Assembly: GCA_902763365.1 (NCBI GenBank)
Contig: CACWRT010000006.1
Location: 1 to 49,306 of the forward strand
DNA: 49,306 nt
Source: an uncultured Ruminococcus sp.
GTDB taxonomy: Bacteria > Bacillota > Clostridia > Oscillospirales > Acutalibacteraceae
Direction of reading: 5' to 3'
The notes under the pieces are model-generated. The model was not told the DNA's origin. It made no database searches and saw only the letters and a list, made by a program, of their open reading frames with translations. Below, in pieces: positions 2,885-42,132 of this stretch. Positions within the stretch are counted from its first letter, which is position 1. Every line of letters starts with the position of its first letter. Made by a program: the position numbers and the translations under genes.

Positions 2885-2910
2885 TTAAATAGTTGGAGGT
2901 GGCTTTTAAA

Positions 2911-14964: not shown

Positions 14965-15010
14965 AATGATACCTCCGCAACAAATGAATAATATAAGAAT
15001 ATCCATTTTT

Positions 15011-15039
15011 ATTGTACTACAAATGTATTCTGATTTCAA
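15011..15039 (-). promoter_or_regulatory. Promoter for TIR/RCC1 protein B
   Basis: On the minus strand TTGAAA (15039-15034), 17-base spacer, TACAAT (15016-15011), about 47 bases upstream of the start at 14964. Confidence 0.6.
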
Positions 15040-23669: not shown

Positions 23670-26123
23670 ATGGATACTTTGCAGTTACAAAAAGAACTTG
23701 ATACTATCAGACATGATGTTGAAAACAGTATTAATGAATTGACAGGAATAATAACCCATGCTTATTCAAAATTTCAAAAAGATTATTTGAGTTATATTGA
23801 ATCAGATACAGTTTCCGTTGATGATCTTATCAGTACTCTTAATAATATCCGTTTGTTAAATAGGCTATGTATAGACTCAGATCATTTATCTCCTGGCATT
23901 ATTCCAATTCCGAATGAAAATGATATAAAATTATTTTCTAAGGATACCATATTCGCATATGTCCAAAAAGCTGCAGAAACAATACAAAGTGATCTTCAAA
24001 AAAGCAGAAGTGTTAGCAATAAGGCTGCCGATATTGATGATGAAGATGAATTTGATCAGATACAGCAAGATGTCAGAGATCTCAGAAAGAAACTTCGTGA
24101 ATACGAATCGTTGTGTGTAGCTTACAAGAAAACAATAGAGCAGTTTAATCCGATTATTCTTTCAGCTTTTGAAGCAAATCCGAATGATAATAAAACGATA
24201 GCTTCTGAAACGAAAGAAGATGCGTATGATACCACATACGAAAATGACTTTAAGAAATGGCTGATGACAAATTCTAATGTATCACAGGAAAAGGCAGAAC
24301 ATTATATTTCAAACCTTCACAGTATCGAGAACCTGTATAAGAAAGTTTTCAAGGCAAGCCGTACACTGCTGCCTTCCGGATCAAAAAATGAGCTTATCGG
24401 TATCATCCGTATGCTTAACTGTAATACTGAGTTTCTTGATGCCGATGAAAGGCGAGATCACGAATTCAGTCAGGCATTAGATGCGCTTGCTGAATTTGCC
24501 GGCATAAAAGAAAAAACAAATTCTCAAAACACGAATCTTGAAAAAACGGCATCTATACATTTTCCGGACTCAGAGCAGCCGATAACAATCAATAAATCTT
24601 CCAAATCTGTTCCGACTGGATTTATACTAAAAGGAGTCAGTTATAGTGTTGCTAATTGGAGAGATCTATACAAAAAATTTGTAACTGCTTTGTATCATGA
24701 TGGTAACTATACGGATTTTATAAAAGAAAGTATTAAAAAACAGTATTTTGGTTTTACGGATGAAGCACACAAATTCAAATTGCAAAAGGAAATAAAAATA
24801 GCACCTGATTTTTATTTAGAAGGCATACTTGCAACAGATGTCATTATCAATCGTGTAAACAGTATCCTAAAGCAATGTTCTATCAGACCGGAAGATATGG
24901 TAATCAATTATTCTTCTACACCTGAAGTTGACAAATATCCTTCTGATAACGATTCGGGTATAAAAGATGTATCTGATGGTAAACAAACAGAAACAGATTC
25001 TGCAGGAGAAAATAATACAGAACATTTTAAGCCCGATACATCAAAACCATTTGATCTTAAAGAAGCAATCATAGAAATAATGATGAGTGATTCACCTGAA
25101 ATTGTTGAAAAGAGTAATTCAAGCGGTGGATTCAATAATATGATTATAAATGAAATACTAAAGGAGTATTACAAACAAGATATCAGTATCTTCGAAATCA
25201 TTAAGATGCTGATGACAGAGGATATATTCATTAATGTAGGAAGACTGTATTACACAATAGACAAAACTATTTTACCAGATAATAAATCGAACAATACGTC
25301 TGTGTCAATTAATGATATGATACCTGACCCGACCATACAAATATCTCAGGTGCCGGAATTACCTGATAATTCATATACATCAAGCGAGGTTACAGAGTTA
25401 TGTGAAGCAAATGAAGCTGAGCATGTTCCGGAAGTAAGTTCCGCACCGGAAATTGCCATTCAGCCGGAAACAGATTCCGAAAAAATCGCTGTTCCTGATG
25501 AAGCAAAACTAATGAATGAGATATTGTCTGTAATAAAGGACAACAGCAATTCTCTGGAATACCGTGACGGTTTCGGAGCATATGAAGTAAAGACACTGCT
25601 TGCAAAAAAGAATATCATCGGAATTGATGAAGATGAGATAGAACTGTTGATGTTGGAAAGCAATGATCTTAAAGAAATAGAGGAAGGTTATTTCGTATAT
25701 AAAGGAGAAACAGAGAAAACAGCGGATGATCCCATAAAAGTGCATGAGATAAGCAGTGATCCAAAGAAAACAATACAGAGTTATGAACCGCCAGTAAAAT
25801 CAGATACTGTACCGTCAGGTGTAAAACTTAAGCTGAACGGAAGAAATGAGGATGCATTTGATATATCTGATGCACTTATAAAAATCTGTGAATTTGCTAT
25901 AAGCTGCAAACCCTTTGCAATGGCAAGGATAGCCAAAAGTGATATTGCCCTGAATGGCAAAAAAGTATTCTGCCGTCAGCCCGCCCCGATAAGCGGGTAT
26001 GAAAAGCTTTCAAACGGATTGCAGGTAATGCGGATAAACAGTATGTCGGAATTAGAAACAATTACAGAAAAAGTAATGAAATACTGTAATATCGGAAATG
26101 ATATGATAGAAATAATTAAGTAA
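23670..26123 (+). CDS. Operon gene 1: multidomain protein of unknown function
   Basis: 817 residues, first gene of the operon. Parts seen: an N-terminal coiled coil with IDDEDEFDQIQQDVRDLRKK (about 121-140); a SAM-like helical domain (about 190-270; FKKWLMTNSNVSQEKAEHYI); a module beginning FILKGVSYSVANWRDLYKKF (about 317-336) and ending near residue 410; two winged-helix-like segments (about 470-535 and 610-670) separated by acidic, Ser/Pro-rich linkers; and a C-terminal module (about 710-815) starting VKLKLNGRNEDAFDIS that looks like another version of the middle module. The middle and C-terminal modules recall a small domain attached to defence proteins in Firmicutes. The coiled-coil motif recurs in operon gene 7. 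It may act as the recognition or adaptor subunit; this is inference. Confidence 0.7.
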   Translation: MDTLQLQKELDTIRHDVENSINELTGIITHAYSKFQKDYLSYIESDTVSVDDLISTLNNIRLLNRLCIDSDHLSPGIIPIPNENDIKLFSKDTIFAYVQKAAETIQSDLQKSRSVSNKAADIDDEDEFDQIQQDVRDLRKKLREYESLCVAYKKTIEQFNPIILSAFEANPNDNKTIASETKEDAYDTTYENDFKKWLMTNSNVSQEKAEHYISNLHSIENLYKKVFKASRTLLPSGSKNELIGIIRMLNCNTEFLDADERRDHEFSQALDALAEFAGIKEKTNSQNTNLEKTASIHFPDSEQPITINKSSKSVPTGFILKGVSYSVANWRDLYKKFVTALYHDGNYTDFIKESIKKQYFGFTDEAHKFKLQKEIKIAPDFYLEGILATDVIINRVNSILKQCSIRPEDMVINYSSTPEVDKYPSDNDSGIKDVSDGKQTETDSAGENNTEHFKPDTSKPFDLKEAIIEIMMSDSPEIVEKSNSSGGFNNMIINEILKEYYKQDISIFEIIKMLMTEDIFINVGRLYYTIDKTILPDNKSNNTSVSINDMIPDPTIQISQVPELPDNSYTSSEVTELCEANEAEHVPEVSSAPEIAIQPETDSEKIAVPDEAKLMNEILSVIKDNSNSLEYRDGFGAYEVKTLLAKKNIIGIDEDEIELLMLESNDLKEIEEGYFVYKGETEKTADDPIKVHEISSDPKKTIQSYEPPVKSDTVPSGVKLKLNGRNEDAFDISDALIKICEFAISCKPFAMARIAKSDIALNGKKVFCRQPAPISGYEKLSNGLQVMRINSMSELETITEKVMKYCNIGNDMIEIIK

Positions 26124-26138
26124 ACAGGGAGAATACTT

Positions 26139-27476
26139 ATGGAAAACAAAGTTGAAATCAAAGAAAAACTCGAGGAACTATATCATAAATATAAGAACAA
26201 CAAGAATAAGCTCAACAAGGAGCAGACAGTCAATGCTGCAATTCTGTTGAAGGAACTTGCTGTCAGTGAGGAAACAACTTATGCAGCAAAGCAGCTTGCA
26301 AGATTTACAGAAGGCGTGTCGAGGGAATTTTTCTCTGTTCTCACCGCAGATGGTTCTGTTTCAGATGAGGTTGTTTATGAGATGTTGGATCTTATTATAG
26401 AAGTATATCAAAAAGAAAACAATCAGCAGAATAAAAACAATATGCTTGGTAAGTTCTTAGCTGCGGCTGAATCTATCTTGAAAAACAACAGAGAAATAGC
26501 CTGTTCTTCAACGCAGCTTCCGATAATGATATCTTTAGCAGCCCAGGCAGCTTTTTCGTTAGATACGTTAATGAATAAATTCAGAGCGTTTGTCGTAAAT
26601 TCAGAAGGCGGCTTGTACTTGCTTGATTACTCCGGTGTCAGTGAATATGCAATAGGTAATATATGGAGTATTACAAATAAGATTTATCCGGATATATTAC
26701 GGTCAAAATATCTTGCCCTTATTACACAATGGGCTGAGAAAAATCATATAGATATACCAAACGCAGATTCATCTGCCAAGACGGAAATAAAGGAACAAAA
26801 AGCTCCCCTGCTAACCAAATCAGAGAAAAAAGAGGATTCAGCTTTATCACAGAAAACTATATCTGCTTCTGAAAAAACTGTACCTGTGAATGAACCAGGT
26901 TCATCTGAAATAAATATAGATAATGAAGCAGATAAATGTATTGCTTTTCCGGGAAATATGCCTGAAGTTATCGCAAGGAAAACAATAGAAGATGTTATAT
27001 CCGCTGTAAATACTTCTGCCGACAGCGTTATTAAGTCTGTAGCGGAAATGCTTGCAAAAGCTAATGATGACCGTGAAAAAGCCGCCGAATGTGACAGGCT
27101 CAGGTCAAGGTTTTCTGAAGCAGAAAAAAAGATAACTGAACAAGACAGTCTTATCGCAGAATTAAGAGAGAAAAATTCTGCTTCAGTAAGCAAATGCGAA
27201 GGTGCAATAAAAAAAGCTAAAGAACTGGAAGCAAAGAATGCAGAGCTTGAAGAAAAACTGAAAGAAGCATATTCCATCAACAGCAGAGAGGAATCACTGG
27301 AAGCGGAAAAAATACGTTCGGAGCTGAAAAAGGCATTCATATACTTGTATGAGGATTGGCTTGAATATGAATTTTCAGATGTCAGTGAGGATAATTTTGC
27401 CTCATTACAGGCTATCATAAAAAAGATGTTCAGGACACTTGAAAGAAACGGTATTGATTTTAAGGAGAACAGATAA
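26139..27476 (+). CDS. Operon gene 2: coiled-coil protein, possible GrpE-like partner of Hsp70
   Basis: 445 residues. The helical N-terminal half (1-210) is not recognised. A Ser/Glu-rich linker (about 212-265) leads to a long coiled coil (about 290-390), then a short helical end (IIKKMFRTLERNGIDF, about 426-441) that resembles the end of GrpE (pattern: K-Q-L-hydrophobic-x-VL-x-K-x-G-V). GrpE is the nucleotide-exchange factor of DnaK. Its stop overlaps the start of the Hsp70 gene by one base (TAATG), so the two are produced together. The GrpE likeness is my inference from the coiled coil, the end motif and the pairing; it is weak at the sequence level. Confidence 0.6.
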   Translation: MENKVEIKEKLEELYHKYKNNKNKLNKEQTVNAAILLKELAVSEETTYAAKQLARFTEGVSREFFSVLTADGSVSDEVVYEMLDLIIEVYQKENNQQNKNNMLGKFLAAAESILKNNREIACSSTQLPIMISLAAQAAFSLDTLMNKFRAFVVNSEGGLYLLDYSGVSEYAIGNIWSITNKIYPDILRSKYLALITQWAEKNHIDIPNADSSAKTEIKEQKAPLLTKSEKKEDSALSQKTISASEKTVPVNEPGSSEINIDNEADKCIAFPGNMPEVIARKTIEDVISAVNTSADSVIKSVAEMLAKANDDREKAAECDRLRSRFSEAEKKITEQDSLIAELREKNSASVSKCEGAIKKAKELEAKNAELEEKLKEAYSINSREESLEAEKIRSELKKAFIYLYEDWLEYEFSDVSEDNFASLQAIIKKMFRTLERNGIDFKENR

Positions 27477-28906
27477 TGGAAAACGGTGCATATTACGGAA
27501 TTGATTTCGGTACAACAAATACTTCCGTATATTTATATAATTATGAAAAAGGTGTGGGCAAAAGAGAAGCAGGCTTCGGCACTGACGGAAAAGATATTCA
27601 GCCGTTCAGCTCCTGCATTGCAATTTCACAAACAAAGCAGAATGATTTTAAATTTGGCAGAGAAGTCAAGGAACATATAAACGATCTTGCGGGGCAGTAC
27701 AGAATCATAACTTCATTTAAATCCCTTTTGGGTACAGATGAAGAAATAGTTGTAAACGGTACAAGGTATAACGGAAAAAGGCTTGCCGCTATGTTTCTTA
27801 ACCATGTAAAGGAAACGGTTCAGAAGATCCGTCCGGATTTCCAAAATGCTGTTTTATCCATACCGGTAGATTTTTCGCCGGAGGCAAGAACTGATATGCT
27901 TGAAGCCGCTAAAGCCGTCGGAATAAATGTAAAGGGCTTTGTAAGTGAATCCTCCGCCGCATATATTTCCAAAGTAATGGAAATAAAGGCATATTCAAAG
28001 GTAATGGTCATAGATTTCGGCGGAGGTACACTTGATCTTAGTATACTTGACCTGAAACAAAAAAGGGTCTATGAGGATTCTGTATATGGTATGAAATTCG
28101 GCGGAGATGATATTGACAGGGAGCTTGCGCTCCGACTTATGCCAAAAATCTATCCGGATATTTCCTTTGAAGAGCTTGACTCCAAAAGAAAAGACAAGCT
28201 GATGAACGAGATCGAACGAATGAAGATAGATTTTTCGCGATACGATGATTATACTATAACATTAGGCGAGGGTGCCAAGCCTGTGGAGATCGACTATGAT
28301 ACCTTTTCCGATATTATTACACCCTCAATAACAAGAAATGTTGTAGATGCAATTTCCAAGGTCATGCAAAAAGCAAACGTCAGTCCGGAAAATATTGATA
28401 AGGTCATACTCGCCGGCGGGTCAAGCGGACTAAGACCCTTTGCGGAAATAATTAATTCCTGTTTTGAACCGGAAAAAATCATTTTCGATGACCAATATCA
28501 GTGGATGGTTGCAAAGGGCGCAGCGATCACCTCAGCAGTAAATTGTGAATTCAGACTTGCTGATGATATATGTATCCTGCTTAGTGACGGGGAAACCTAC
28601 CCCGTACTTATGAAGGATGAAAACAAGGTCGGCGATGAAAGTGAATATCTGTCCTTTTCGCTGACAACAGATGCCACAGATGCACATTTTATTTTCACTG
28701 ATTCAACAGGTAAAAATCGGTACTGTACGTTTTCAGTAAAAACAAAGGGTTTTCTTAACGAAATGCTTAAACTGATCGTTAAGATAGGAATGGATCAGAT
28801 TGCAAGAGTAGCTGTTACAAACGAACATATGGGGAGCAGTTATTGTGTAAATAAGGACATTAACAAACTGCGGTTTTATTATGATCTGAAAGACATTGAG
28901 GAATAG
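27476..28906 (+). CDS. Operon gene 3: Hsp70/DnaK-like ATPase
   Basis: 476 residues. All nucleotide-binding signatures of the actin/Hsp70 fold are present: phosphate-1 GIDFGTTNTS (8-17), phosphate-2 VIDFGGGTLDLS (about 178-189) and adenosine motif ILAGGSSGLRPF (about 311-322). The ATPase domain ends near residue 360. The remaining 115 residues do not look like a normal peptide-binding domain with lid and appear to be a short beta-rich domain, so this is a shortened, divergent Hsp70 rather than housekeeping DnaK (about 610-640 residues). Its ATG overlaps the stop of gene 2. It may be an ATP-driven switch for assembly or release of the helicase complex; this is inference. Confidence 0.85.
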   Translation: MENGAYYGIDFGTTNTSVYLYNYEKGVGKREAGFGTDGKDIQPFSSCIAISQTKQNDFKFGREVKEHINDLAGQYRIITSFKSLLGTDEEIVVNGTRYNGKRLAAMFLNHVKETVQKIRPDFQNAVLSIPVDFSPEARTDMLEAAKAVGINVKGFVSESSAAYISKVMEIKAYSKVMVIDFGGGTLDLSILDLKQKRVYEDSVYGMKFGGDDIDRELALRLMPKIYPDISFEELDSKRKDKLMNEIERMKIDFSRYDDYTITLGEGAKPVEIDYDTFSDIITPSITRNVVDAISKVMQKANVSPENIDKVILAGGSSGLRPFAEIINSCFEPEKIIFDDQYQWMVAKGAAITSAVNCEFRLADDICILLSDGETYPVLMKDENKVGDESEYLSFSLTTDATDAHFIFTDSTGKNRYCTFSVKTKGFLNEMLKLIVKIGMDQIARVAVTNEHMGSSYCVNKDINKLRFYYDLKDIEE

Positions 28907-28910
28907 AAAA

Positions 28911-31247
28911 ATGATCAACTCGAATATTAATATTTCTTCAAATATATACATAAGAAAATACAAAGATCTGCGCCGTGATAAGCAGTATACTGAAAAAATA
29001 GTCGGTGCAAAAAGACTCAAAGAAATAAAAGCCAAGCATTCAGGCATTCTGAACCGTATACCATTAAATAATGCTCAGGAGCAGCTTGTAAATGGTACTG
29101 TACAATGTTCCCTTGACAGAAGCGGAGAAATATCATACGGACCTGTATTTAAAAATGGCAATATGATTTGGGAAAACAGATGTGAAAATATATTATGTGA
29201 TAGTTACAAAAAATGCAGTAAGGCGCAAAATTTCAAAGCTATAAGCAGAGAAGCTGTTCCTGAGAAAGATACACAGGAAGAAGATGATCTGCGTCAGTTT
29301 ATGGACATGATCGGTATAAGACTTAACGATGATACCGTAGAATTTGCTCATGACAAATCCCCCGAAACAGAGGAAGAACCTAAAAAGTACATACCTCCTG
29401 CGGAGCCGGTCGCTGTAAATAATTCTGACACACCAACATACTCTTATACAGAAATACAGGATTCACGATGTATTATTCAGGCACCTATTGACTCGCATAT
29501 TATTCTTAATTCGGGTCCGGGTACCGGAAAAACATATACGATTATCCAAAGACTGATCTACATTCTTTCGGGTAACCTTTGCCCTGCTGATGAAATATAT
29601 ATACTGTGCTACACACGTTCCGCTAAAGGCGTAGTCGAAAGAAAAATTGAGCAGGCTGTTACAGAAGGAAAAATACCTCCATCGGCACAGAATATTTGTG
29701 TCTTGACATTCGATTCCTATGCAACTTATTTTCTCATGGAAATGAAGGAACAGGGCGTTATAAAAGAAGATTTTTCGGGATATGATTATAACGAAAGAAT
29801 ACGATTGTTCAACAGGTATATCAGCAGTGAGGATTTTGAGGGAATCAGCTATTTTATTGTTGACGAGATACAGGATCTTGTGAATGAACGTGCAGAAATG
29901 GTTCTGAACATTCTAAAAAATCTTGAATGCGGATATCTTCTTGCCGGAGACAGATGTCAGTCTATTTATGATTACTCTGCCGACAAGGATGTAATGCTTG
30001 ACAGTGTAGAATTCTATAAACGAGCTGAAAAGCAATTTCCGGAAGATATGCAAAGGTATGAAATAATTGTCAACAGAAGGCAATGTCAGGAACTGGCTGA
30101 AAAATCGTATGATATGCGTCAGGTGCTGCTTCATAAATCGATCGGTGAACAAAACAGCTATGCCCAAGAGGTTATGGATAGTTATTCTGAAAATATAAAA
30201 ATTGAAAAATACATAAAATCACTCAGCGGTACTCCTTCAACCTCAACAGCTATCCTTTGCAGAAATAACGGAGAAGCCGAGTATATCAGCAGCGTTCTGT
30301 GTAAAAATGGAATACCGCATACACTTAACAGGGGAGTAAACAATACGAAACCTCTTCCTAAATGGATGGCAGATATTTTCTGGGATTATTGTAACGATTC
30401 AATATCGAAAAAGACCTTTATAGAAAGATTTGATTTCAGGTGCGGTTTCCGGTCGGATTCGGAAATGTTATGGCAGCAGCTTTGCAAACTGTCCGGCAGC
30501 CGTGATACCTCATCTATAGGGATTTCAAAGCTGATCTCTGCACTGAGTATTCCGGGAAATATTCCAGAAAGCTTTTGTGAAAAATCACCATTGCTTACAG
30601 TATCAACTATACATAAAGCCAAGGGCAGCGAATTTGATCGTGTTATTTTGATAAAATCAAAGATCGATCATTCTGAAAAAAGTGCAGAAGAAGCAAGAGT
30701 GAGATATGTCGCTCTGACAAGACCAAAAAATCAGTTTGTAGTAATGAAGAAAAATGTGCATTATTTCAAGCAGCCGATACCGGGACGTGTTATCGAAACC
30801 GGATGTCATAATCTTTATTCCAAACGAAATACGTTCTGCAAATGCATTGCTGTGGGGCTGAACGGAGATATAGACAGCAATTCTTTTGTTTCCGGAAACT
30901 TTAATGACTGTATTGACTTGCAGGAATATATCAGCGGCAATGTCAGAATATATGATAAGCTGACGGCTGTACGTTCATCTGACGGCAAGTATGATATCGT
31001 GCATAATGGCATAAAGATCGGAACACTTTCGGCTAAAATGGAAAATGAACTTCTTGCCGGAATACAATCTACAGATTATAAATATAATATGCCTGATAGT
31101 CTGGATAACCTGTATGTCAGCGATATAACATCAGAACTGTTGACAAAATTTGATAAAAATGTCCCCCTTGAATTCCAGAAGTCAAGGATAGTATACGGTA
31201 TACAGATCACAGGACTTGCAAAACTTGTTTTTGAAAAGAGGAAGTGA
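28911..31247 (+). CDS. Operon gene 4: UvrD-like SF1A helicase with Cys-cluster N-terminus
   Basis: 778 residues from ATG 28911 (GAGG 10 bases upstream). The N-terminal 190 residues are unassigned and contain C-x4-C-x5-C (CENILCDSYKKC, about 91-102). The helicase has Walker A SGPGTGKTYT (about 201), Walker B IVDEIQDL (near 315), GDRCQSIYD (near 346), STIHKAKGSEFD (near 567) and motif VI RYVALTRPKN (near 600): a full UvrD/PcrA-type set. It starts four bases after the Hsp70 stop and ends one base before the DrmA start. UvrD-like proteins translocate 3' to 5' on single-stranded DNA. The C-terminal 140 residues are unassigned. Confidence 0.85.
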   Translation: MINSNINISSNIYIRKYKDLRRDKQYTEKIVGAKRLKEIKAKHSGILNRIPLNNAQEQLVNGTVQCSLDRSGEISYGPVFKNGNMIWENRCENILCDSYKKCSKAQNFKAISREAVPEKDTQEEDDLRQFMDMIGIRLNDDTVEFAHDKSPETEEEPKKYIPPAEPVAVNNSDTPTYSYTEIQDSRCIIQAPIDSHIILNSGPGTGKTYTIIQRLIYILSGNLCPADEIYILCYTRSAKGVVERKIEQAVTEGKIPPSAQNICVLTFDSYATYFLMEMKEQGVIKEDFSGYDYNERIRLFNRYISSEDFEGISYFIVDEIQDLVNERAEMVLNILKNLECGYLLAGDRCQSIYDYSADKDVMLDSVEFYKRAEKQFPEDMQRYEIIVNRRQCQELAEKSYDMRQVLLHKSIGEQNSYAQEVMDSYSENIKIEKYIKSLSGTPSTSTAILCRNNGEAEYISSVLCKNGIPHTLNRGVNNTKPLPKWMADIFWDYCNDSISKKTFIERFDFRCGFRSDSEMLWQQLCKLSGSRDTSSIGISKLISALSIPGNIPESFCEKSPLLTVSTIHKAKGSEFDRVILIKSKIDHSEKSAEEARVRYVALTRPKNQFVVMKKNVHYFKQPIPGRVIETGCHNLYSKRNTFCKCIAVGLNGDIDSNSFVSGNFNDCIDLQEYISGNVRIYDKLTAVRSSDGKYDIVHNGIKIGTLSAKMENELLAGIQSTDYKYNMPDSLDNLYVSDITSELLTKFDKNVPLEFQKSRIVYGIQITGLAKLVFEKRK

Positions 31248-31248
31248 A

Positions 31249-34200
31249 ATGACAACTTTCAAAAAATACTATGATGCCATTGACGATATAGCTTCCCATC
31301 TGAAAGTCAGCCTTATCGGACCTGTACAGGAAAACGAGATTATTGAATCCGAGTCCCCTCTGAGCCGTTATTCGATAGGTGTACTTTGGGGTCAGCAAAA
31401 GTCAGGCGGCGGAGAACAATCCGGTCCGGAAAATAACGAGGAACTGTTTGAGGATGAAAAGCAGAATGATGATGGTGTGATAAATCAAAGTGTTTTTAAG
31501 CCGTCTTCTATGGGAATATCATTTTCAGCCGTTCCGGGAGATGAACTGGAGGTCGTTTTCTCTTATTCAGTATACCATAGAACTTTTGATGAAAGCGGTA
31601 CAGAAGAGACAAGGTTCGAGTGTACATATAAGAGAGAAGCAAAGCAGTTTTCTTCAAATACTACTGTTCCCGGAAGAGTTTGCAATGTCAGACTCATATC
31701 CGATAATAACTACAGTGATGTTTCTGTAATGATGAATGTCAGAAGGATCAATAAAGACGGAAGTGTACTTGCAACAATATCTGTTCTGAATAATAATGTT
31801 GACAGCAGTAAAAAAGATGAAAGCTGTGCATCGGCACTTTTTCAATGCGAGCTGTCGCTAAAAAGCAAAAATTGTTTTATTCCTATCTATAGTCAAAGAG
31901 GTCATCGGTCGGCAGAAGAAGAAAAAAACGAAATGCTTTATGATTCTGTCAGAAACTATTCCTACGGACACGGATGCTCAACAATTCATACCGAAGAACA
32001 TGGTATCATAAAAGAGATAAAAAGCAGCTTTATCCCATTTTACAGAATGAAGCAGATGATGCCGGGACTACTTGATAACTGTGGATATCTTTATATGTCA
32101 TACTGGAAAAATGCTGACAGAAAAACCGCCTGCGTTCAGCTTGACGGATTTATCGATCAATACAGGAACTGGTATCAGGAATTGCAGAAAAACGATCAGA
32201 TAATAAATCGTTATTCTGATTCATCAGAAATTACATTTTCAAATATCGAGAAATGTATCACTCGTCTGAAAAACGGTGTGCAAACGCTCGGAAATAATGA
32301 TACTGCATGGAGATCCTTTCTGTATATGAATGAAGCAATGCTGCTTCAAAGAATAAAAACAAAACATTGCAGTGAAGAAACAGTTTGCTGGTACCCGTTT
32401 CAGCTTGCATATATCTTGCAAATCATACCGGATATAGCAGAAGAAAACTCTCCTTTCAGAGATAATGTTGATCTTCTGTGGTTCCCGACAGGCGGCGGTA
32501 AAACAGAGGCTTATCTTGGATTATCTGCGTTTTCGATTTTTTACAGAAGACTTTCCGGCAAGGGAGAGGATATAAACGGTGTTGCAGTTTTAATGCGTTA
32601 TACCCTGCGGCTCCTGACAATACAGCAGTTTCAAAGAGCGTCTGCCCTGATCTGTGCCTGTGAATACATGAGAAAGAAATACCATATTCCCGGGGATGAA
32701 ATATCCATTGGTTTATGGATCGGCTCGGGAATGACGCCAAATCATACAAAGGATGCAGAGGAAACACTTCAAAAGATCAGGGAAATCAATTCCGTTCCGC
32801 AATATGAAGCAAATCCCATGCAGATAACAAGCTGTCCTTGGTGCGGTGCGGAAATAGGTATCGGCGGATATTTCGTACAGGACGGTATGATGAATATTTC
32901 ATGCTGTAATAATCCCGGATGTGAATTCTCCGGACACCTTCCGATATATGTGATCGATGAAGATATATATAAGATCGCTCCAACATTCGTACTCAGTACT
33001 GTTGATAAATTTGCGAGAATAACCTGGGAGGAAAAGTCCGGCAGTCTGCTGGGCGAAAACGGCTGTAAACCGCCGGAGCTTATCATACAGGATGAACTTC
33101 ACCTTATTTCAGGACCTTTAGGTTCTTTAGCGGGTATATATGAAATGGCTGTTGAGCATATCTGCCGTCATTATGGCAGATCACCGAAGATCATTGCATC
33201 AACAGCTACTGTGAAAAATGCGGATGAGCAAATAAAAACTATTTACGATCGTAATATGATACAATTTCCGCCGAACGGATTATCATATGATGATTCCTTC
33301 TTTTCTGTACAGGCAAGTGAAGAAAAAAGATCAGCCCGTACATACATAGGAATATGTTCCATAGGTTCAGGTACATCGGAAATGCTGATAAAGATTTTCG
33401 GGGTACTGACTTATATGAAGTACCTTTATAAAAAGCAGGGACTGGATACAAATGTAATAGACCAGTTTTATACATATGTTGGATATTTCAATTCTCTGAA
33501 AGAATTGGGCTCTAATTCTATTATCGTTTCAGACCGAATCCTTTCCGAGGTAAAGTATCTTGTAACATATAAATTCGGTGAAGAGGCGCAAAAGGCAGGA
33601 CTGTCTGTAAAAGATATTCCACCTTTTATGAAAAACAATGAACTGACAAGCCGTAACGGTTCAGCTGAGATAAAAAGTATTCTTGACAGATTGGATGTAA
33701 GATGCACAAGTGAGGATTGTTACGACTATATTATGGCATCGAACATGCTGTCTGTGGGCATAGATATTGACAGATTAGGTGTTATGTGTGTATACGGTCA
33801 GCCGAAATCAAATTCTGAATATATCCAGGCAACAAGCCGTGTGGGACGTTCCAACCCCGGTCTGGTCATTACAATTTACAATAATATGCGTTCAAGGGAT
33901 AAATCCTTTTTTGAACAGTTTATTTACTATCATAAAACATTTTATAAATATGTCGAGGCTACAAGTGTGACATCATATTCACCCCGAGCAATAGAAAAAG
34001 CTCTGCACAGTGCAATGATGGCAATTATACGGCATACCATTTCAAAATATAATCCAAATGAGGGTGCATCACGATTTGACCGTGACGATAATAATATACA
34101 GAATATAAAGGAACAGATCATTAAGAGAGTAAATGACATAGAACCATGGCAGGCAGAGTATGCTGAGGAGTGGCTTGACTATTATCTTGACTGCTGGAAG

Positions 34201-34368
34201 GAACTGTGTGACAGTATACCGGACAGGCTTGTATTTTCTGATTATCATGACGAAGATAAAGCGCTTCTCAGAAGCGGAGAAAATCAGAACGGTTCGGACA
34301 TACCAACAGTTCTTAATTCCGTCAGAAATGTTGAGTCTTCCGTTAGTATTTATTTCACTAAGCGATAG
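31249..34368 (+). CDS. drmA: Operon gene 5: DrmA-like (DISARM, YprA-family) SF2 helicase
   Basis: 1039 residues from ATG 31249 (GAGG upstream, one base after the preceding stop). The N-terminus has the DrmA-type opening SLIGPVQ...LSRYSIGVLWG. Walker A is FPTGGGKTEAYLGL (about 412-425), the DEXH box QDELHLISGPLGSL (about 614), motif III ASTATVKNADEQ, and motif VI YIQATSRVGR (about 859-868). A four-Cys zinc site (CPWC...C...C, about 527-560) interrupts the helicase core. DrmA pairs with DrmB in DISARM, and both are present here in order. No methyltransferase or PLD nuclease (DrmC) is encoded nearby, so this is a DISARM-related, not a classical DISARM, locus. Confidence 0.85.
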   Translation: MTTFKKYYDAIDDIASHLKVSLIGPVQENEIIESESPLSRYSIGVLWGQQKSGGGEQSGPENNEELFEDEKQNDDGVINQSVFKPSSMGISFSAVPGDELEVVFSYSVYHRTFDESGTEETRFECTYKREAKQFSSNTTVPGRVCNVRLISDNNYSDVSVMMNVRRINKDGSVLATISVLNNNVDSSKKDESCASALFQCELSLKSKNCFIPIYSQRGHRSAEEEKNEMLYDSVRNYSYGHGCSTIHTEEHGIIKEIKSSFIPFYRMKQMMPGLLDNCGYLYMSYWKNADRKTACVQLDGFIDQYRNWYQELQKNDQIINRYSDSSEITFSNIEKCITRLKNGVQTLGNNDTAWRSFLYMNEAMLLQRIKTKHCSEETVCWYPFQLAYILQIIPDIAEENSPFRDNVDLLWFPTGGGKTEAYLGLSAFSIFYRRLSGKGEDINGVAVLMRYTLRLLTIQQFQRASALICACEYMRKKYHIPGDEISIGLWIGSGMTPNHTKDAEETLQKIREINSVPQYEANPMQITSCPWCGAEIGIGGYFVQDGMMNISCCNNPGCEFSGHLPIYVIDEDIYKIAPTFVLSTVDKFARITWEEKSGSLLGENGCKPPELIIQDELHLISGPLGSLAGIYEMAVEHICRHYGRSPKIIASTATVKNADEQIKTIYDRNMIQFPPNGLSYDDSFFSVQASEEKRSARTYIGICSIGSGTSEMLIKIFGVLTYMKYLYKKQGLDTNVIDQFYTYVGYFNSLKELGSNSIIVSDRILSEVKYLVTYKFGEEAQKAGLSVKDIPPFMKNNELTSRNGSAEIKSILDRLDVRCTSEDCYDYIMASNMLSVGIDIDRLGVMCVYGQPKSNSEYIQATSRVGRSNPGLVITIYNNMRSRDKSFFEQFIYYHKTFYKYVEATSVTSYSPRAIEKALHSAMMAIIRHTISKYNPNEGASRFDRDDNNIQNIKEQIIKRVNDIEPWQAEYAEEWLDYYLDCWKELCDSIPDRLVFSDYHDEDKALLRSGENQNGSDIPTVLNSVRNVESSVSIYFTKR

Positions 34369-34379
34369 GAGGAGTACCG

Positions 34380-36191
34380 ATGCCAAGACCAAATTTCAGA
34401 AAAAAACAAAGTGAAAAAAGCAATGGTATTTCCAAATTCACCAATGAAAAAATATCGGTCGGCGATATCCGCAAGACCCAGATGATAACTACATTCGGAG
34501 TCGGTGCAATGGTCGATTTCAAGGATGATACAGTGATAATCGCTTCAACGGACGATTGGGACTATAATCCGGGTAATTACGAGGAAGTAGAAAAAAGACA
34601 GCTTTATAATGAAAACCTGTCCGTAATTACAGGTGTTGATTATTTCCTTATGCCGAGGACAACGAAAAGCGTCAACAGCTTTTCAAAGAGCAAGGATGTA
34701 CCATCATACATATTTCCCGAAAAGCTTCACTGTTCAAGGTGCGGCAATATCTACGATATCAATGAGCTTGATATCAGGCAAAGACATAAATGCCCTCAGT
34801 GTAAAAATGATCTGACAGCTTCACGATTTGTTGTTGTATGCCGGCGGGGACATTTAGACGATTTTCCTTACGATTGGTGGGTACATAACGGTCAACCCTG
34901 TCAATCGGGCAAACTTGCACCCCGTATCAAAATGATCAATGTCTATAACCGCACTGACATAGACAGCCTGATGCTGGAATGTGCTGAATGTAAGGCGAGA
35001 AGAGGTATGGTTCAGGCTTTTTCAGGAAAAGCTCTTGAATCAAGAAAATGCACCTGTAAATTTCCGCATTTCAAAGACCCTCTTAACAGGGCATCCTATG
35101 GCTGTTCAGAAACAATGATAACCCGTCTGCGTACAGCATCGGGAGTATATTTTCCTGTCACAAGAGCTGCGCTTCTGATACCGCCTTGGAGCAGAGAAGC
35201 GGTCGTTTTTATGAAGAAGAGCTATGATATGCTTATCAATATGGATGAAACCAGGATACCTTCGTCTGTCAGAGATTCCATGCATAATGACGAGCTTTCA
35301 GATGAAGAAATTATGCGGTCGTGGAACGCTGTAAAAAGAACTCTGACAGAAAGATCAAATAGGACAGAAGTATCTGTCTGTGAGGACGAATATGCCGTTT
35401 TATCTAATGAAGAAAACAGCGATTCAGGAAGCTTCTCGTCTTATTCCTCTGATGTGCCCGACAAATACAGAGAAAATATTGATCAGATCGCTATAGTAGA
35501 CAGATTGACTGTAACGCAGGCACTGATCGGTTTTACACGCATAACAAGAGATGATGATAATATTGTGCCGCTTTCGCAGTACCCGAAGAAATGGCTCCCG
35601 GCTGTTGAACTTACCGGAGAAGGTATCTTTATCAGGTTCAATAATGAAAAGATCAAAGCTTGGGCAAAGGTTAACAGGTCAAGATACAGAAGAATGAGAA
35701 AAGCTTTGCAGGAAAGTAATTTCCGGTTCGATGGTTTTTCAGAGACATATGTTCTGCTTCATACTTTCGCACATCTTTTTATCAGAGAGATATCAAATGT
35801 TTGCGGTTACAGTGCCGCTTCGATAAGAGAAAAAATATATTCTGAAACAGATGCCCGGACTGATGAGATCAAAATGTGCGGTGTGCTGATATATGTTTCC
35901 TCATCCGACAGCGATTGCAGTCTCGGGGGACTTATCAGCATAGCACACAACAGCGATGTATTTGAAAAGATAATGGACAGTATGCTTGAACGAGCTTCAT
36001 GGTGCAGCGGTGATCCACTTTGCATATCCTCGACAAGACAAGGATATAAAAACCTGAATTATTCCGCTTGCCATGACTGCACACTTTTGCCGGAAACATC
36101 CTGTGAGAGATTCAACTGTTTTCTTGACAGGGCATCTGTCGTGGGTACACCGGAGAATCCGGAGCTTGGATTTTTTAACAAATTATTATAG
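34380..36191 (+). CDS. drmB: Operon gene 6: DrmB-like DUF1998 protein
   Basis: 603 residues from ATG 34380, preceded by GGAGGA. The N-terminus has the DrmB signature TTFGVGAMVDF (about 38-48), followed by a zinc site CSRC...CPQC (about 119-143) and further Cys pairs (CAEC near 200). The C-terminal DUF1998 region (about 460-600) contains HTFAHLFIRE and a cysteine-rich end (CHDCTLLPETSCERFNCFLD). DrmB works with the DrmA helicase; in DISARM the pair forms a complex that binds DNA with a free 5' end. It is 11 bases downstream of drmA. Confidence 0.85.
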   Translation: MPRPNFRKKQSEKSNGISKFTNEKISVGDIRKTQMITTFGVGAMVDFKDDTVIIASTDDWDYNPGNYEEVEKRQLYNENLSVITGVDYFLMPRTTKSVNSFSKSKDVPSYIFPEKLHCSRCGNIYDINELDIRQRHKCPQCKNDLTASRFVVVCRRGHLDDFPYDWWVHNGQPCQSGKLAPRIKMINVYNRTDIDSLMLECAECKARRGMVQAFSGKALESRKCTCKFPHFKDPLNRASYGCSETMITRLRTASGVYFPVTRAALLIPPWSREAVVFMKKSYDMLINMDETRIPSSVRDSMHNDELSDEEIMRSWNAVKRTLTERSNRTEVSVCEDEYAVLSNEENSDSGSFSSYSSDVPDKYRENIDQIAIVDRLTVTQALIGFTRITRDDDNIVPLSQYPKKWLPAVELTGEGIFIRFNNEKIKAWAKVNRSRYRRMRKALQESNFRFDGFSETYVLLHTFAHLFIREISNVCGYSAASIREKIYSETDARTDEIKMCGVLIYVSSSDSDCSLGGLISIAHNSDVFEKIMDSMLERASWCSGDPLCISSTRQGYKNLNYSACHDCTLLPETSCERFNCFLDRASVVGTPENPELGFFNKLL

Positions 36192-36203
36192 AGGTAACAG
36201 ATC

Positions 36204-36818
36204 ATGAGTCAAACAAAAGATAAATTAGAAACAAGTTTTTCCGAGATCGAAAATATACTTGCACAGATCATTAAGACAGAATCCGACAGAATGTCTGCAG
36301 CCATTGATATTGATGATGAAGACAAATTTCTGAAGATCAGCAGAGAATTCAGAAACAATAGGAAAAAGCTGAAAAGATGGAACGAACGTGTCCGCGAGTT
36401 AAAATCAGAAATAATTAATGACGATATAATGTCCAAATACGTAGATGATAATGTAGGATCAGATACTTTAGAGAAGGATGAAGATCCTGAAATATTATCG
36501 CAGGCAGAATCTGTAAATTCCCAGTGGAGCATAAAGGTAAGGGATTGCATGAGGGCGCTTGAGCAAAGTAATTATGCATTCCATGCTTATACCATACGTG
36601 CGCTAAGCTCGCCGGAACGAAGTAAAGATTATTTTGGTATAAACAATGCATTTTTCAATAGAGAATACATTGCCAAAAAATACTGGAAGGAATCGTTTTC
36701 TTTTAACGATGAAATCTTGTATCTGACCTCTGATTGGGATGAACAATGTTATCTCAGCTTCAAGCAATGGTTTCTGAATAATTGCCCTCCGAATCTCACT
36801 AAGTTGGTAAAAGGGTAA
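36204..36818 (+). CDS. Operon gene 7: small protein sharing a module with operon gene 1
   Basis: 204 residues, last gene of the operon, 12 bases after drmB, with GAGG upstream. A helical N-terminus contains IDIDDEDKFLKISREFRNNR (about 31-50), which matches the IDDEDEFDQIQQDVRDLRKK stretch of operon gene 1. The C-terminal half (about 110-200; KDYFGINN, ILYLTSDWDEQCYLSF) resembles the middle module of gene 1 (QYFGFTDE, DFYLEGILATD). I recognise no named family. Sharing modules between the first and last genes suggests that both dock on the same partner or ligand. I see no clear intrinsic terminator after it; 36819-36969 is AT-rich without a recognised gene. Confidence 0.65.
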   Translation: MSQTKDKLETSFSEIENILAQIIKTESDRMSAAIDIDDEDKFLKISREFRNNRKKLKRWNERVRELKSEIINDDIMSKYVDDNVGSDTLEKDEDPEILSQAESVNSQWSIKVRDCMRALEQSNYAFHAYTIRALSSPERSKDYFGINNAFFNREYIAKKYWKESFSFNDEILYLTSDWDEQCYLSFKQWFLNNCPPNLTKLVKG

Positions 36819-37066: not shown

Positions 37067-38500
37067 ATGCTTGAAAGCGAGCTTGTGGCATTGATAAGAA
37101 ACATACAATCTGTCAAGAGTGAAAGCAATAAAATAGAAGTCAAAGCTGCCGGCAAGGGCTGCCCTAAGGTGAGAGATACCCTTTCCTCATTTTCAAATCA
37201 GTCCGGCGGTGGAGTAATAATATTCGGCATAGACGAAAACGAAAACTACAATGTTTGCGGCGTTTATGATGCAGCCGACCTGATGAAGAAGGTCGAGGCA
37301 CAATGCCTTGAAATGACACCGGTGATAAGACCGTTGTTTTCTGTTGCCGAGATTGATAATAAAACAGTGATATCTGCGGAGATAAAGGAGATTGAAAACA
37401 CAGAAAAGCCCTGCTTTTACAGTGGGGTGGGTCGCTTGAAAGGCTCATATATACGCTGCGGAGATGCTGACAGGCTGATGACGGAATACGAGGTCTACAG
37501 CTTTGAAGCCTTCAAGAAAAAGATACAGGACGAGCTGCGTACTTCCGAAAGAGCGGTTATGAAGGATATGCAGACAAATGCATTTGAACTGTATATGAAT
37601 CTGCTAAGAACGAAAAAGCCAAACCTTGCAGAGCTGCCGACAGAAGACCTGTGCCGTTTACAGAGCTTCACGGAAGACGGTAAGCCGACACTTGCAGGGC
37701 TTATGTTGTTTTCGATCTATCCGCAGGCATTCTTTCCGCAGCTTTGTATTACGGCGGTATCTGTTCCCGGTACGGAAATAAGCAGTACAGGTCCTGTTGG
37801 AGAAAGATTCATAGATAACAAAAGAATAGACGGCAATCTCGTTCAGATGCTGAACGATGCCCTTCATTTTGTGCGGAACAATATGAAAAACGCCACTATC
37901 ATTGACCCCGATACGGGCAAAAGAGCTGACAGGACAGACTACCCCGTAATTGCAATCAGAGAGCTTATCCTGAACGCACTTATCCACAGAGACTACAGTA
38001 TACACACCGATTCTGCGCCTATCACTATCAGGATGTTTACCGACCGCTTTGAAATAGAAAATCCCGGCGGTCTTTACGGCAGAATGACCATTGACAGACT
38101 TGGCAAATTTGCCGCAGATACCCGTAATCCCGCCATTGCAAATGCTATGGAAATACTCGGAGAAACCGAGAACCGTTACAGCGGTATTCCTACTATCGTC
38201 AGCGCTATGGAGGAATACGGTCTGCCCGAGCCGGTATTTGAAAGCGACAGAGGTATTTTCAAGGTTACGCTGTATAACCGCAGTTTCAGCAGTTCTGTTT
38301 CCGACCCTGTTTCAGAAGAAATTCTCAGCTTCTGCCGCACTCCGAAAAGCCGTGCGGAATTGGAGGAGCTGTTCAAGGGCAGGCTGACCATTGCTTATGT
38401 GATGGAAAGATATGTAAAGCCTATGATCGAAAGCAAACAACTTGCTTTGACTATTCCCGATAAACCGAAGAGCAAAAATCAGAGATATTACACTGTATAA
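37067..38500 (+). CDS. AlbA_2 (Schlafen-type) / HATPase_c_4 protein, paralogue 2
   Basis: 477 residues, ATG 37067 after AGGAGG. The domains are as in the 2911 gene: AlbA_2 (LSSFSNQSGGGVIIFGIDE, about 37-55; RLKGSYIRCGDADR) and HATPase_c_4 (ELILNALIHRDYSIH near 300; NPGGLYGRMT). I count about 13 residue differences from the 40699 protein (roughly 97% identity), and the leader, promoter, operator and terminator hairpin are duplicated too, so a unit of about 1.6 kb was copied as a whole. Many silent base differences show that the copying is not very recent. Its promoter overlaps a long inverted repeat, suggesting autoregulation by this DNA-binding protein. Confidence 0.85.
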   Translation: MLESELVALIRNIQSVKSESNKIEVKAAGKGCPKVRDTLSSFSNQSGGGVIIFGIDENENYNVCGVYDAADLMKKVEAQCLEMTPVIRPLFSVAEIDNKTVISAEIKEIENTEKPCFYSGVGRLKGSYIRCGDADRLMTEYEVYSFEAFKKKIQDELRTSERAVMKDMQTNAFELYMNLLRTKKPNLAELPTEDLCRLQSFTEDGKPTLAGLMLFSIYPQAFFPQLCITAVSVPGTEISSTGPVGERFIDNKRIDGNLVQMLNDALHFVRNNMKNATIIDPDTGKRADRTDYPVIAIRELILNALIHRDYSIHTDSAPITIRMFTDRFEIENPGGLYGRMTIDRLGKFAADTRNPAIANAMEILGETENRYSGIPTIVSAMEEYGLPEPVFESDRGIFKVTLYNRSFSSSVSDPVSEEILSFCRTPKSRAELEELFKGRLTIAYVMERYVKPMIESKQLALTIPDKPKSKNQRYYTV

Positions 38501-40698: not shown

Positions 40699-42132
40699 AT
40701 GCTTGAAAGTGAGCTTGTGGCACTAATAAGAAACATACAATCCGTCAAGAGTGAAAGCAATAAAATAGAAGTTAAAGCTGCCGGCAAGGGCTGCCCGAAG
40801 GTGAGAGATACCCTTTCTTCATTCTCGAATCAATCCGGTGGAGGAGTAATAATCTTCGGCATAGACGAAAACGAAAGCTACAATGTATGCGGCGTTTATG
40901 ATGCAGCTGATCTTATGAAAAAGGTCGAGGCACAATGTCTTGAAATGACACCGGTGATAAGACCACTGTTCTCTGTTGCCGAGATTGATAATAAAACAGT
41001 GGTATCTGCGGAGATAAAAGAAATAGAGAACACAGAAAAGCCCTGTTTTTACAGCGGTGTCGGCCGTTTGAAAGGTTCTTATATACGCTGCGGAGACGCT
41101 GACAGGCTGATGACGGAATACGAGGTCTACAGCTTTGAAGCCTTCAAAAAAAAGATACAGGACGAGCTGCGCACTTCCGAAAGAGCCGTCATGAAGGATA
41201 TGCAGACAAATGCTTTTGAACTGTATATGAACCTGCTCAGAATTAAAAAGCCAAATCTTGCAGAACTGCCGACAGAAGATCTGTGTCGCTTGCAGAGCTT
41301 CACGAAAGACGGCAAACCTACACTTGCAGGGCTTATGCTGTTTTCTGTTTATCCGCAGGCATTCTTTCCTCAGCTTTGTATTACTGCGGTATCTGTTCCC
41401 GGGACGGAAATCAGCAGCACAGGTCCTGTCGGAGAAAGATTCATCGACAACAAAAGAATAGACGGCAATCTCGTTCAGATGCTGAACGATGCTATTCATT
41501 TTGTGCGGAATAATATGAAAACAGCCACTATCATTGACCCCGATACAGGCAAAAGAGCCGATAGGACTGATTACCCCGTAATTGCTATAAGAGAGCTTAT
41601 CCTGAACGCACTTATCCACAGGGATTACAGCATACACACCGATTCGGCGCCTATCACTATCAGGATGTTTACCGACCGCTTTGAAATAGAAAACCCCGGC
41701 GGTCTTTACGGAAGAATGACCATTGACAGACTTGGCAAGTTTGCCGCAGATACACGAAATCCTGCCATTGCAAACGCTATGGAAATACTCGGAGAAACCG
41801 AGAATCGTTACAGCGGTATTCCTACTATCATCAGTGCTATGGAGGAATACGGTCTGCCTGAGCCGGTATTTGAAAGCGACAGAGGTGTTTTTAAGGTAAC
41901 ACTTTATAGCCGCAGTTTCAGCAGTTCTGTATCAGACCCCGTTTCGGAAGAAATTCTCAGCTTTTGCCGCACTCCCAAAAGCCGCGCAGAATTAAAGGAG
42001 CTTTTCAAGGGCAGGCTGACCATTGCTTATGTCATGGAGAAATATGTCAAGCCGATGATCGAAAGCAAACAGCTTGCTTTGACTATTCCAAATAAACCGA
42101 AGAGCAAAAATCAGAGATATTATACTGTATAA
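40699..42132 (+). CDS. AlbA_2 (Schlafen-type) / HATPase_c_4 protein, paralogue 3
   Basis: 477 residues, the near twin of the 37067 protein (about 13 differences, most of them conservative: for example Asn to Ser in DENESY, Glu to Lys in SFTKDG, Asp to Asn in IPNKPK). All motifs of both domains are intact, so both copies look functional. ATG 40699 follows AGGAGG. It has its own copy of the operator/promoter (40602-40678) and of the terminator (42138-42169). Because both proteins and both operators are conserved, they probably cross-regulate. Direct repeats of this size allow recombinational loss of 38.5-40.6 kb. Confidence 0.85.
   Translation: MLESELVALIRNIQSVKSESNKIEVKAAGKGCPKVRDTLSSFSNQSGGGVIIFGIDENESYNVCGVYDAADLMKKVEAQCLEMTPVIRPLFSVAEIDNKTVVSAEIKEIENTEKPCFYSGVGRLKGSYIRCGDADRLMTEYEVYSFEAFKKKIQDELRTSERAVMKDMQTNAFELYMNLLRIKKPNLAELPTEDLCRLQSFTKDGKPTLAGLMLFSVYPQAFFPQLCITAVSVPGTEISSTGPVGERFIDNKRIDGNLVQMLNDAIHFVRNNMKTATIIDPDTGKRADRTDYPVIAIRELILNALIHRDYSIHTDSAPITIRMFTDRFEIENPGGLYGRMTIDRLGKFAADTRNPAIANAMEILGETENRYSGIPTIISAMEEYGLPEPVFESDRGVFKVTLYSRSFSSSVSDPVSEEILSFCRTPKSRAELKELFKGRLTIAYVMEKYVKPMIESKQLALTIPNKPKSKNQRYYTV

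Follow-up and report, generated by a model that had tools for sequence, protein, structure and literature searches.

What does an Hsp70 do in an operon built around DrmA and DrmB, and is such an operon a decayed DISARM (defence island system associated with restriction-modification) or a system of its own? This question is raised by seven genes, g1 to g7 (positions 23670–36818), in the window, that is, the whole 49,306-nucleotide stretch of contig CACWRT010000006.1 from an uncultured Ruminococcus sp., a gut-type bacterium. We found that these genes represent a conserved gene set which is related to DISARM, has a dedicated Hsp70, coiled-coil protein and UvrD-type helicase, and is distinct from classical DISARM. 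The conserved core of this array consists of a coiled-coil/helical-repeat protein, Hsp70, UvrD, DrmA and DrmB, and the first gene is variable. The array seems to be a branch of bacterial immunity that has so far gone unrecognised.

A conserved gene set around DrmA, DrmB and Hsp70

All seven open reading frames are on one strand and are separated by at most 15 bp or overlap slightly (Table 1), as described in the initial annotation, and its DrmA-like, DrmB-like, Hsp70-like and UvrD-like assignments were confirmed by family models. The g5 protein matched the DrmA model NF038325 with 892 bits, just under the equivalog cut-off of 950, and the PADLOC DrmA model with an E-value of 5.6e-219. The g6 protein reached 456 bits with NF038324 (cut-off 240). 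In profile comparisons with the DISARM pair of structure 7s9v, the g5 family aligned with chain A at 4.5e-250 and g6 with chain B at 2.2e-68; the homology covers nearly the whole length of both proteins, which are encoded by separate genes. The g3 protein was assigned to the Hsp70 family (PF00012, 4.7e-30) and g4 to the UvrD family (PF00580, 9.7e-19). No family scored above cut-off for g1, g2 and g7. For g4 and g5 the ATG codons used in Table 1, each with a purine-rich stretch upstream, are the likely starts, versus TTG 28896 (783 aa) and TTG 31216 (1050 aa). Scans for promoters and terminators did not define firm borders of the operon transcript.

A DrmA search of genome contigs yielded six further loci (L003–L008). 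In five of them (L003, L004, L005, L006 and L008) g1, the coiled-coil gene, Hsp70, UvrD, DrmA and DrmB are present in the order and strand of the window, L004 and L005 (two strains of R. flavefaciens) being nearly identical over the array stretch. In L007 the contig ends before g1, and UvrD is split over two frames. Of 394 genomes from the order, 10 had a DrmA by NF038325 at E 1e-20, as had 19 of 398 from the phylum; at E 1e-40 the corresponding figures were 8 of 391 for the class and 1 of 200 for the family. Each figure counts the window's genome. The survey comprised 36 DrmA loci besides the window (of two copies in genome G545 one was taken). The co-occurrence check proposed in the initial annotation came out in favour of a link for Hsp70, and UvrD went with it: Hsp70 followed by UvrD precedes DrmA in six surveyed loci (L053, L054, L055, L064, L067 and L072), and the other 30 had neither an Hsp70 in the fetched stretch nor a same-strand UvrD directly upstream of DrmA, although four of these 30 (L015, L062, L075 and L076) contain only a fragment or stop at or close to DrmA and so allow no judgement. 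UvrD genes of Hsp70-less loci were found on the opposite strand (L059, L060), downstream (L057, L059), about 9 kb off (L071), or 3.8 kb upstream of DrmA with other genes between (L101).

The 817- and 445-residue proteins (g1 and g2) had also been named for the co-occurrence check, and the first six genes recur in order. All six are present in L055 and also in L054, where the matches to g1 (4.6e-5) and g2 (8.4e-6) are weak and UvrD is in two pieces. In L053 an AbiE pair precedes the coiled-coil open reading frame and the contig ends before DrmB; in L067 it ends inside DrmB. The 204-residue g7, likewise named for the check, had no counterpart in any other locus scanned and is not part of the core. 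By hhalign, the coiled-coil proteins were related to the g2 group of the window with probabilities of 85% for L054 and 81% for L053 and L141, the latter being an array on a phage-like contig. The coiled-coil protein of L064/L067 reached 89% to L053/L141 and 23% directly to the window group, and that of L072 was assigned by position only (6.5% or less). L072 has kept the gene order at identities to the window of 23% for Hsp70, 21% for UvrD, 33% for DrmA and 32% for DrmB. When pairwise distances between loci were computed for each of the five core proteins, they correlated at r 0.94–0.99; 12 loci were compared, or fewer for genes that are split or cut, and kinship is included in these values. 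We concluded that the operon is not a chance assembly, because its order recurs in related loci and the distances of its core proteins correlate.

In a tree of 53 DrmAs, 11 of the 12 sequences from Hsp70-type loci formed one clade (support 99 in the Shimodaira–Hasegawa-like approximate likelihood ratio test), and those from classical loci with DrmC were on another branch (support 97). For a second tree L141 was added, and L068, L105, L015, L075 and L074 were dropped as long branches, fragments or a near-copy. Here 12 of 13 Hsp70-type sequences clustered with support 97, L072 being the outlier, and the DrmC group required two changes. The approximately unbiased test rejected neither a single clade of all 13 Hsp70-type sequences (p = 0.222) nor one that also contained three plasmid loci with UvrD only (p = 0.315). 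Co-occurrence and phylogeny together support the earlier suggestion of a distinct type.

Table 1. Coordinates of the operon, of motifs within its genes and of the divergent neighbour
Feature	Position	Strand	Description
g1	23670..26123	+	817 aa, variable first gene
g2	26139..27476	+	445 aa, helical-repeat and coiled-coil protein
g3	27476..28906	+	476 aa, Hsp70 (family models)
g4	28911..31247	+	778 aa, UvrD/PcrA-type superfamily 1 helicase (family models)
g5	31249..34368	+	1039 aa, DrmA (family models, 7s9v_A)
g6	34380..36191	+	603 aa, DrmB with DUF1998/MZB and HAR domain (family models, 7s9v_B)
g7	36204..36818	+	204 aa, accessory, short helical module in common with g1
Hsp70 ATPase residues (g3)	27503..28030	+	phosphate loop D10-N15, K82, E158, D180-T185 (alignment to DnaK)
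g4 Cys cluster	~29106-29216	+	
g4 Walker A	~29514-29534	+	
g4 Walker B	~29859-29876	+	
DrmA acidic loop (g5)	31396..31497	+	34 residues, 9 acidic; in the position of the DISARM trigger loop
DrmA Val1028 (g5)	34330..34332	+	aligned with Val1296 of Serratia DrmA
ProA/DUF4011-type anti-phage protein	17957..23311	-	MTES_1575 nuclease domain; divergent to the operon, not part of the system

Sequence features of the array proteins

Zinc motifs, helicase motifs and Hsp70 ATPase motifs are conserved in the array proteins. Two elements of DrmA are known from the Serratia DISARM protein, for which the available part of PMC9142583 gives residues 176–232 as trigger loop and Val1296 as proposed contact to the DNA base and its methylation. 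An acidic loop and the equivalent valine were present in 13 of 13 Hsp70-type DrmAs, as in most other compared DrmAs. The loop comprises 31–43 residues in the 13 Hsp70-type proteins and 34–46 in 11 classical DrmAs. A threonine occupies the valine position in L056, L057 and L099, divergent DrmA/DrmB loci that are flanked on both sides by NERD-type genes (in L057 with one gene between).

The g3 protein contains the nucleotide-binding domain with catalytic residues that defines the Hsp70/DnaK superfamily. The ATPase residues are invariant in 12 homologues, except for K82, which is nearly invariant. In the alignment to DnaK, K82 corresponds to K70, E158 to E171 and D180-T185 to D194-T199, and we take their roles to be the same. 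The g3 family profile aligned with DnaK residues 2–499, which covers the nucleotide-binding and beta substrate-binding domains; judged from this alignment, the alpha lid is apparently missing. Among the PADLOC models g4 was closest to GajB of the Gabija system. Its UvrD motifs are invariant across 10 aligned members, and its Cys cluster, which the UvrD of L072 does not have, sits in an N-terminal extension.

For g2 an AlphaFold2 model (mean predicted local distance difference test score, pLDDT, 77.7) comprised helical repeats (residues 1–201), a disordered linker, a long helix (276–411), which we take as a coiled coil, and a short C-terminal helix (417–436). A profile search of the PDB gave 76 matches, of which the best 60 were mostly coiled-coil segments (top 2.5e-4). 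The GrpE-like partner suggested in the initial annotation was compared with 20 GrpE sequences: hhalign probabilities were 1–3%, with reversal and column-shuffle controls applied. Column shuffles scored equally well in 13 of 200 cases for the C-terminus and in 1 of 200 when the coil was included, where shuffling also breaks the heptads. The model contained no strand, and GrpE was absent among the 50 fold matches listed.

The N-terminus of g1 is predicted to be helical, and by eye two similar alpha/beta modules (about 311–416 and 718–815) and winged-helix-like segments were seen; its AlphaFold2 model was of low confidence (mean pLDDT 57.7). The PDB profile search with g1 gave no match up to E 5, and fold searches with the g1 and g2 models brought up only generic matches, all weaker than E 0.001. 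An N-terminal HIRAN domain (best 7.4e-12) occurs in three of seven aligned g1 members but not in the g1 of the window. In L064, L067 and L072 large proteins without family assignment occupy the place of g1; those of the L064/L067 pair did not match that of L072. The module said to be common to g1 and g7 is real, though short (about 27 residues, blastp 2e-5), and g7 also matched two g1 homologues (4.1e-5 and 6.3e-5).

Neighbouring genes and relation to known systems

No methyltransferase and no DrmC had been seen in the window operon by the initial annotation, and we found none by annotation, reference searches or PADLOC. No methyltransferase was among the 20 annotated window proteins, six methyltransferase references were negative over all open reading frames of the window, and four methyltransferase families had no match on its contig; the six-reference scan missed the BREX methyltransferase PglX near the array of L008. 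The C5 methyltransferase family PF00145 matched neither the window's genome (99.36% complete) nor genome G1323 (no completeness figure); it matched in 8 of 10 array-bearing genomes searched, mostly away from the array. In the fetched stretches of the window, L003, L006, L008, L054 and L055 no C5 gene was linked to the array, and the genome of L054 has two C5 genes about 27 kb from it. Matches to PF02384 (5), PF01555 (5) and PF07669 (4), in overlapping sets, were all on other contigs of the window's genome. Methyltransferases of other systems lie near some arrays, namely, besides PglX in L008, those of DISARM in L004 and L005 and of an opposite-strand Eco57I/ResIII unit in L055.

With DISARM the window shares DrmA and DrmB in two genes, the acidic loop and the base-contact valine. 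It differs by the additional Hsp70, coiled-coil protein and UvrD and by a DrmA in a separate clade. DrmC was present in 11 classical loci and in 0 of 12 Hsp70 loci scanned with that reference, and DrmMI and DrmMII were not found in the window operon. The phospholipase D-type nuclease DrmC is typical of DISARM and reportedly dispensable; DrmD marks class 1 and DrmE class 2 of these systems. Neither DrmD nor DrmE was found in the window operon, and in PADLOC neither was matched by g1 or by the large first proteins of L064, L067 and L072.

Other systems resemble the array in part. ARMADA type II likewise combines a YprA-family helicase with a GajB-like UvrD helicase. In ARMADA, however, YprA is fused to DUF1998 and Vsr and accompanied by BrxHII and PglX (available part of PMC12458937), whereas no PglX-like methyltransferase, BrxHII-like helicase or Vsr was found in the window operon, which has DUF1998/MZB in a separate gene. 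The words Hsp70, DnaK and chaperone are absent from the available main text of that paper on YprA-family systems. Type III CoCoNuT and Hsp70-McrB systems also have Hsp70-like nucleotide-binding and substrate-binding domains, HEAT-like repeats and coiled coils in a defence operon; as described in the available part of PMC11090510, the CoCoNuT Hsp70 domains are Walker A-degenerate, whereas g3 keeps the ATPase residues, and the McrB-like GTPase CnuB and the McrC homologue CnuC were not found in the window operon. Despite the likeness of g4 to GajB, the OLD nuclease GajA of Gabija was not found there either. Among the papers listed in literature searches outside subscription papers and supplementary tables, none had a title or summary on an Hsp70-DrmAB operon.

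About 250 bp downstream of the operon lies an AlbA/Schlafen-type gene. Its divergent ProA-like neighbour matched NF058533 with 1143.6 bits (cut-off 1500) and PADLOC PDC-S37 with 1216.8 bits. Defence neighbours of other arrays, annotated for all but the flanks of L007 and L072, were DISARM in L004 and L005, BrxB, BrxC and PglX of BREX in L008, JetA2 and JetB2 of Wadjet in L054, a DpdF/PsyrT-like helicase in L006 and restriction-modification genes in L055. Besides the AbiE pair of L053, genes resembling AbiE at the protein level were found in L141. Together with a major head protein and the Hsp70-DrmAB array, the L141 contig encodes a NERD nuclease-helicase, these AbiE-like genes and the first part of a C5 methyltransferase gene; a serine recombinase lies near the array in L003. 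An Hsp70-like match was obtained in 18 viral contigs, one of which (L141) has the array, and the phage collection gave no DrmA match. The array is sparsely distributed, with 1 of 200 genomes in the family, and apparently mobile.

Further genes were noted on the way. Two large proteins encoded on the contig of the window (4414–7629 and 11797–15039, minus strand) combine a TIR domain with TPR and RCC1-like repeats, and the contig also encodes three AlbA/Schlafen-HATPase proteins (2893–4347, 37067–38500 and 40699–42132, plus strand), of which the last two are close paralogues. Viral contigs L143, L144, L149–L152 and L158 (around position 10000) and plasmid L081 (9992–11761) have Hsp70-like genes of about 486–590 aa beside unidentified open reading frames; the viral contigs gave no DrmA match, and in L081 none is annotated.

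Proposed mode of action and rival explanations

An anti-phage function of the array is very probable. We also consider it rather more probable than otherwise that the array is a dedicated, horizontally moving anti-phage system of a distinct DISARM-related type, in which DrmAB and UvrD are under the control of Hsp70 and its coiled-coil partner. In favour of this reading are the conserved and co-inherited gene order, the occurrence of Hsp70 and UvrD together before DrmA, the DrmA clade, the conserved motifs, acidic loop and valine, the defence-gene neighbours, the phage-like contig of L141 and the sparse distribution. DnaK remodels replication-initiation assemblies in lambda replication, and the UvrD family has 3'-5' polarity. 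From the conserved residues, DrmAB would be autoinhibited by the acidic loop and would open on meeting DNA that is single-stranded or has a 5' overhang, from a genome that is entering the cell or being replicated. Activation by such DNA is likely by analogy with the Serratia DISARM, where it relieves autoinhibition by the acidic loop (available part of PMC9142583). DrmA and the UvrD-type motor would then translocate along and unwind phage DNA and so block its replication. The destruction may be completed by a nuclease of the host or, in the sister branch, by the NERD nuclease-helicase (it follows DrmB in L064). The variable g1 could add DNA-binding or sensing modules. In the least certain step, Hsp70 and the coiled-coil protein would form a clamp, driven by ATP, that either keeps the motor complex inactive or licenses it on encounter with a phage protein or nucleoprotein complex, and recognition might then rely less on DNA methylation. 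We assign Hsp70 only tentatively as a control or licensing module. Protein-level recognition by Hsp70 that replaces methylation is unlikely, and the more specific scheme, in which Hsp70 and its partner recognise phage protein complexes such as replication-initiation assemblies and license DrmAB and UvrD for a DISARM-like defence without methylation, is similarly speculative.

Several observations weigh against this reading. No nuclease domain was recognised in the operon proteins. Within the sister branch, L064 and L067 have a C5 methyltransferase gene immediately upstream of the array (in L067 with one opposite-strand open reading frame between), and in L141 such a gene begins downstream, after the NERD gene. 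N6/N4-type methyltransferases in the window's genome could still exert control by methylation. The 7 of 14 arrays that adjoin another known type of defence gene are a raw count without a random-gene background. The search covered Bacillota genomes, plasmids, phages and viral contigs, and among these the array turned up in Bacillota genomes and on a single viral contig only; no Hsp70 was found in 12 plasmid regions with DrmA that were inspected (10 from outside Bacillota, two from Bacillota), and plasmid searches with DrmA and Hsp70 queries gave no Hsp70 array among the matches listed. Plasmid loci of Tsukamurella, Rhizobium and Shinella likewise have UvrD directly before DrmA and DrmB, but no Hsp70 was found, and the genes downstream encode NERD or other helicases and restriction proteins. 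Since these three plasmids have the unit without Hsp70, the chaperone is not obligatory for UvrD-DrmAB. In plasmids L079, L080, L106 and L109 an AAA ATPase or helicase gene comes after the DrmA-DrmB pair and DrmC was not found; these are apparently further DrmAB variants.

The three plasmid loci also speak for a role of Hsp70 and the coiled-coil protein as mere assembly chaperones for large helicase complexes, with recognition left to DrmAB, UvrD and g1 as in DISARM. The retained loop and valine of DrmAB and the beta substrate-binding domain of Hsp70 would fit such a role, whereas classical DISARM and the other surveyed DrmAB loci manage without a linked Hsp70, and the family search detected no J-protein domain in any of the seven proteins; we regard this explanation as possible but doubtful. 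Persisting control by methylation, through a linked C5 enzyme in the sister branch and an unlinked N6/N4 enzyme in the window's genome, draws on the genes named above and on the retained valine. It is unlikely in view of the two genomes without a C5 match and the six stretches without an array-linked C5 gene. Because C5 genes adjoin the array in the sister branch, independence of methylation is at best a property of the window's sub-branch, and for this sub-branch alone the suggestion that self and non-self are told apart on another basis is plausible.

A nearby methyltransferase in related loci had been named as a sign of decayed classical DISARM. Such genes do stand beside the arrays of L064, L067 and L141, and a classical DISARM, with DrmMII and DrmD identified in L004, lies downstream of the array in L004 and L005. 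This DISARM has its own DrmA of about 1268 bits, over the cut-off, so that two systems stand side by side rather than one decayed system. Common possession of DrmA and DrmB notwithstanding, we rejected decay as an origin of the window array, and consider it extremely improbable, since Hsp70-type DrmAs form a clade of their own and the neighbouring DISARM has its own DrmA; the reading frames are also open and their order is conserved. A DNA-repair operon of the YprA/MrfA kind is conceivable as well, since UvrD functions in repair. MrfA, of the YprA family, works in excision repair (available part of PMC12458937). The sparse distribution, the defence-gene neighbours, the phage-like contig and the DISARM-type split of DrmA and DrmB argue against repair, which we hold to be very unlikely.

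For DISARM it is an open question how DrmAB spares the chromosome of the host and which functions the accessory proteins have. A natural test of the need for methylation is offered by a DrmAB lineage that has kept its sensor elements intact but has Hsp70, coiled-coil and UvrD partners, in a genome without a C5 match. After the CoCoNuTs, the array is a further example of a likely anti-phage operon that contains an Hsp70, in this case with intact ATPase residues, which would make chaperone-based control of immunity testable.

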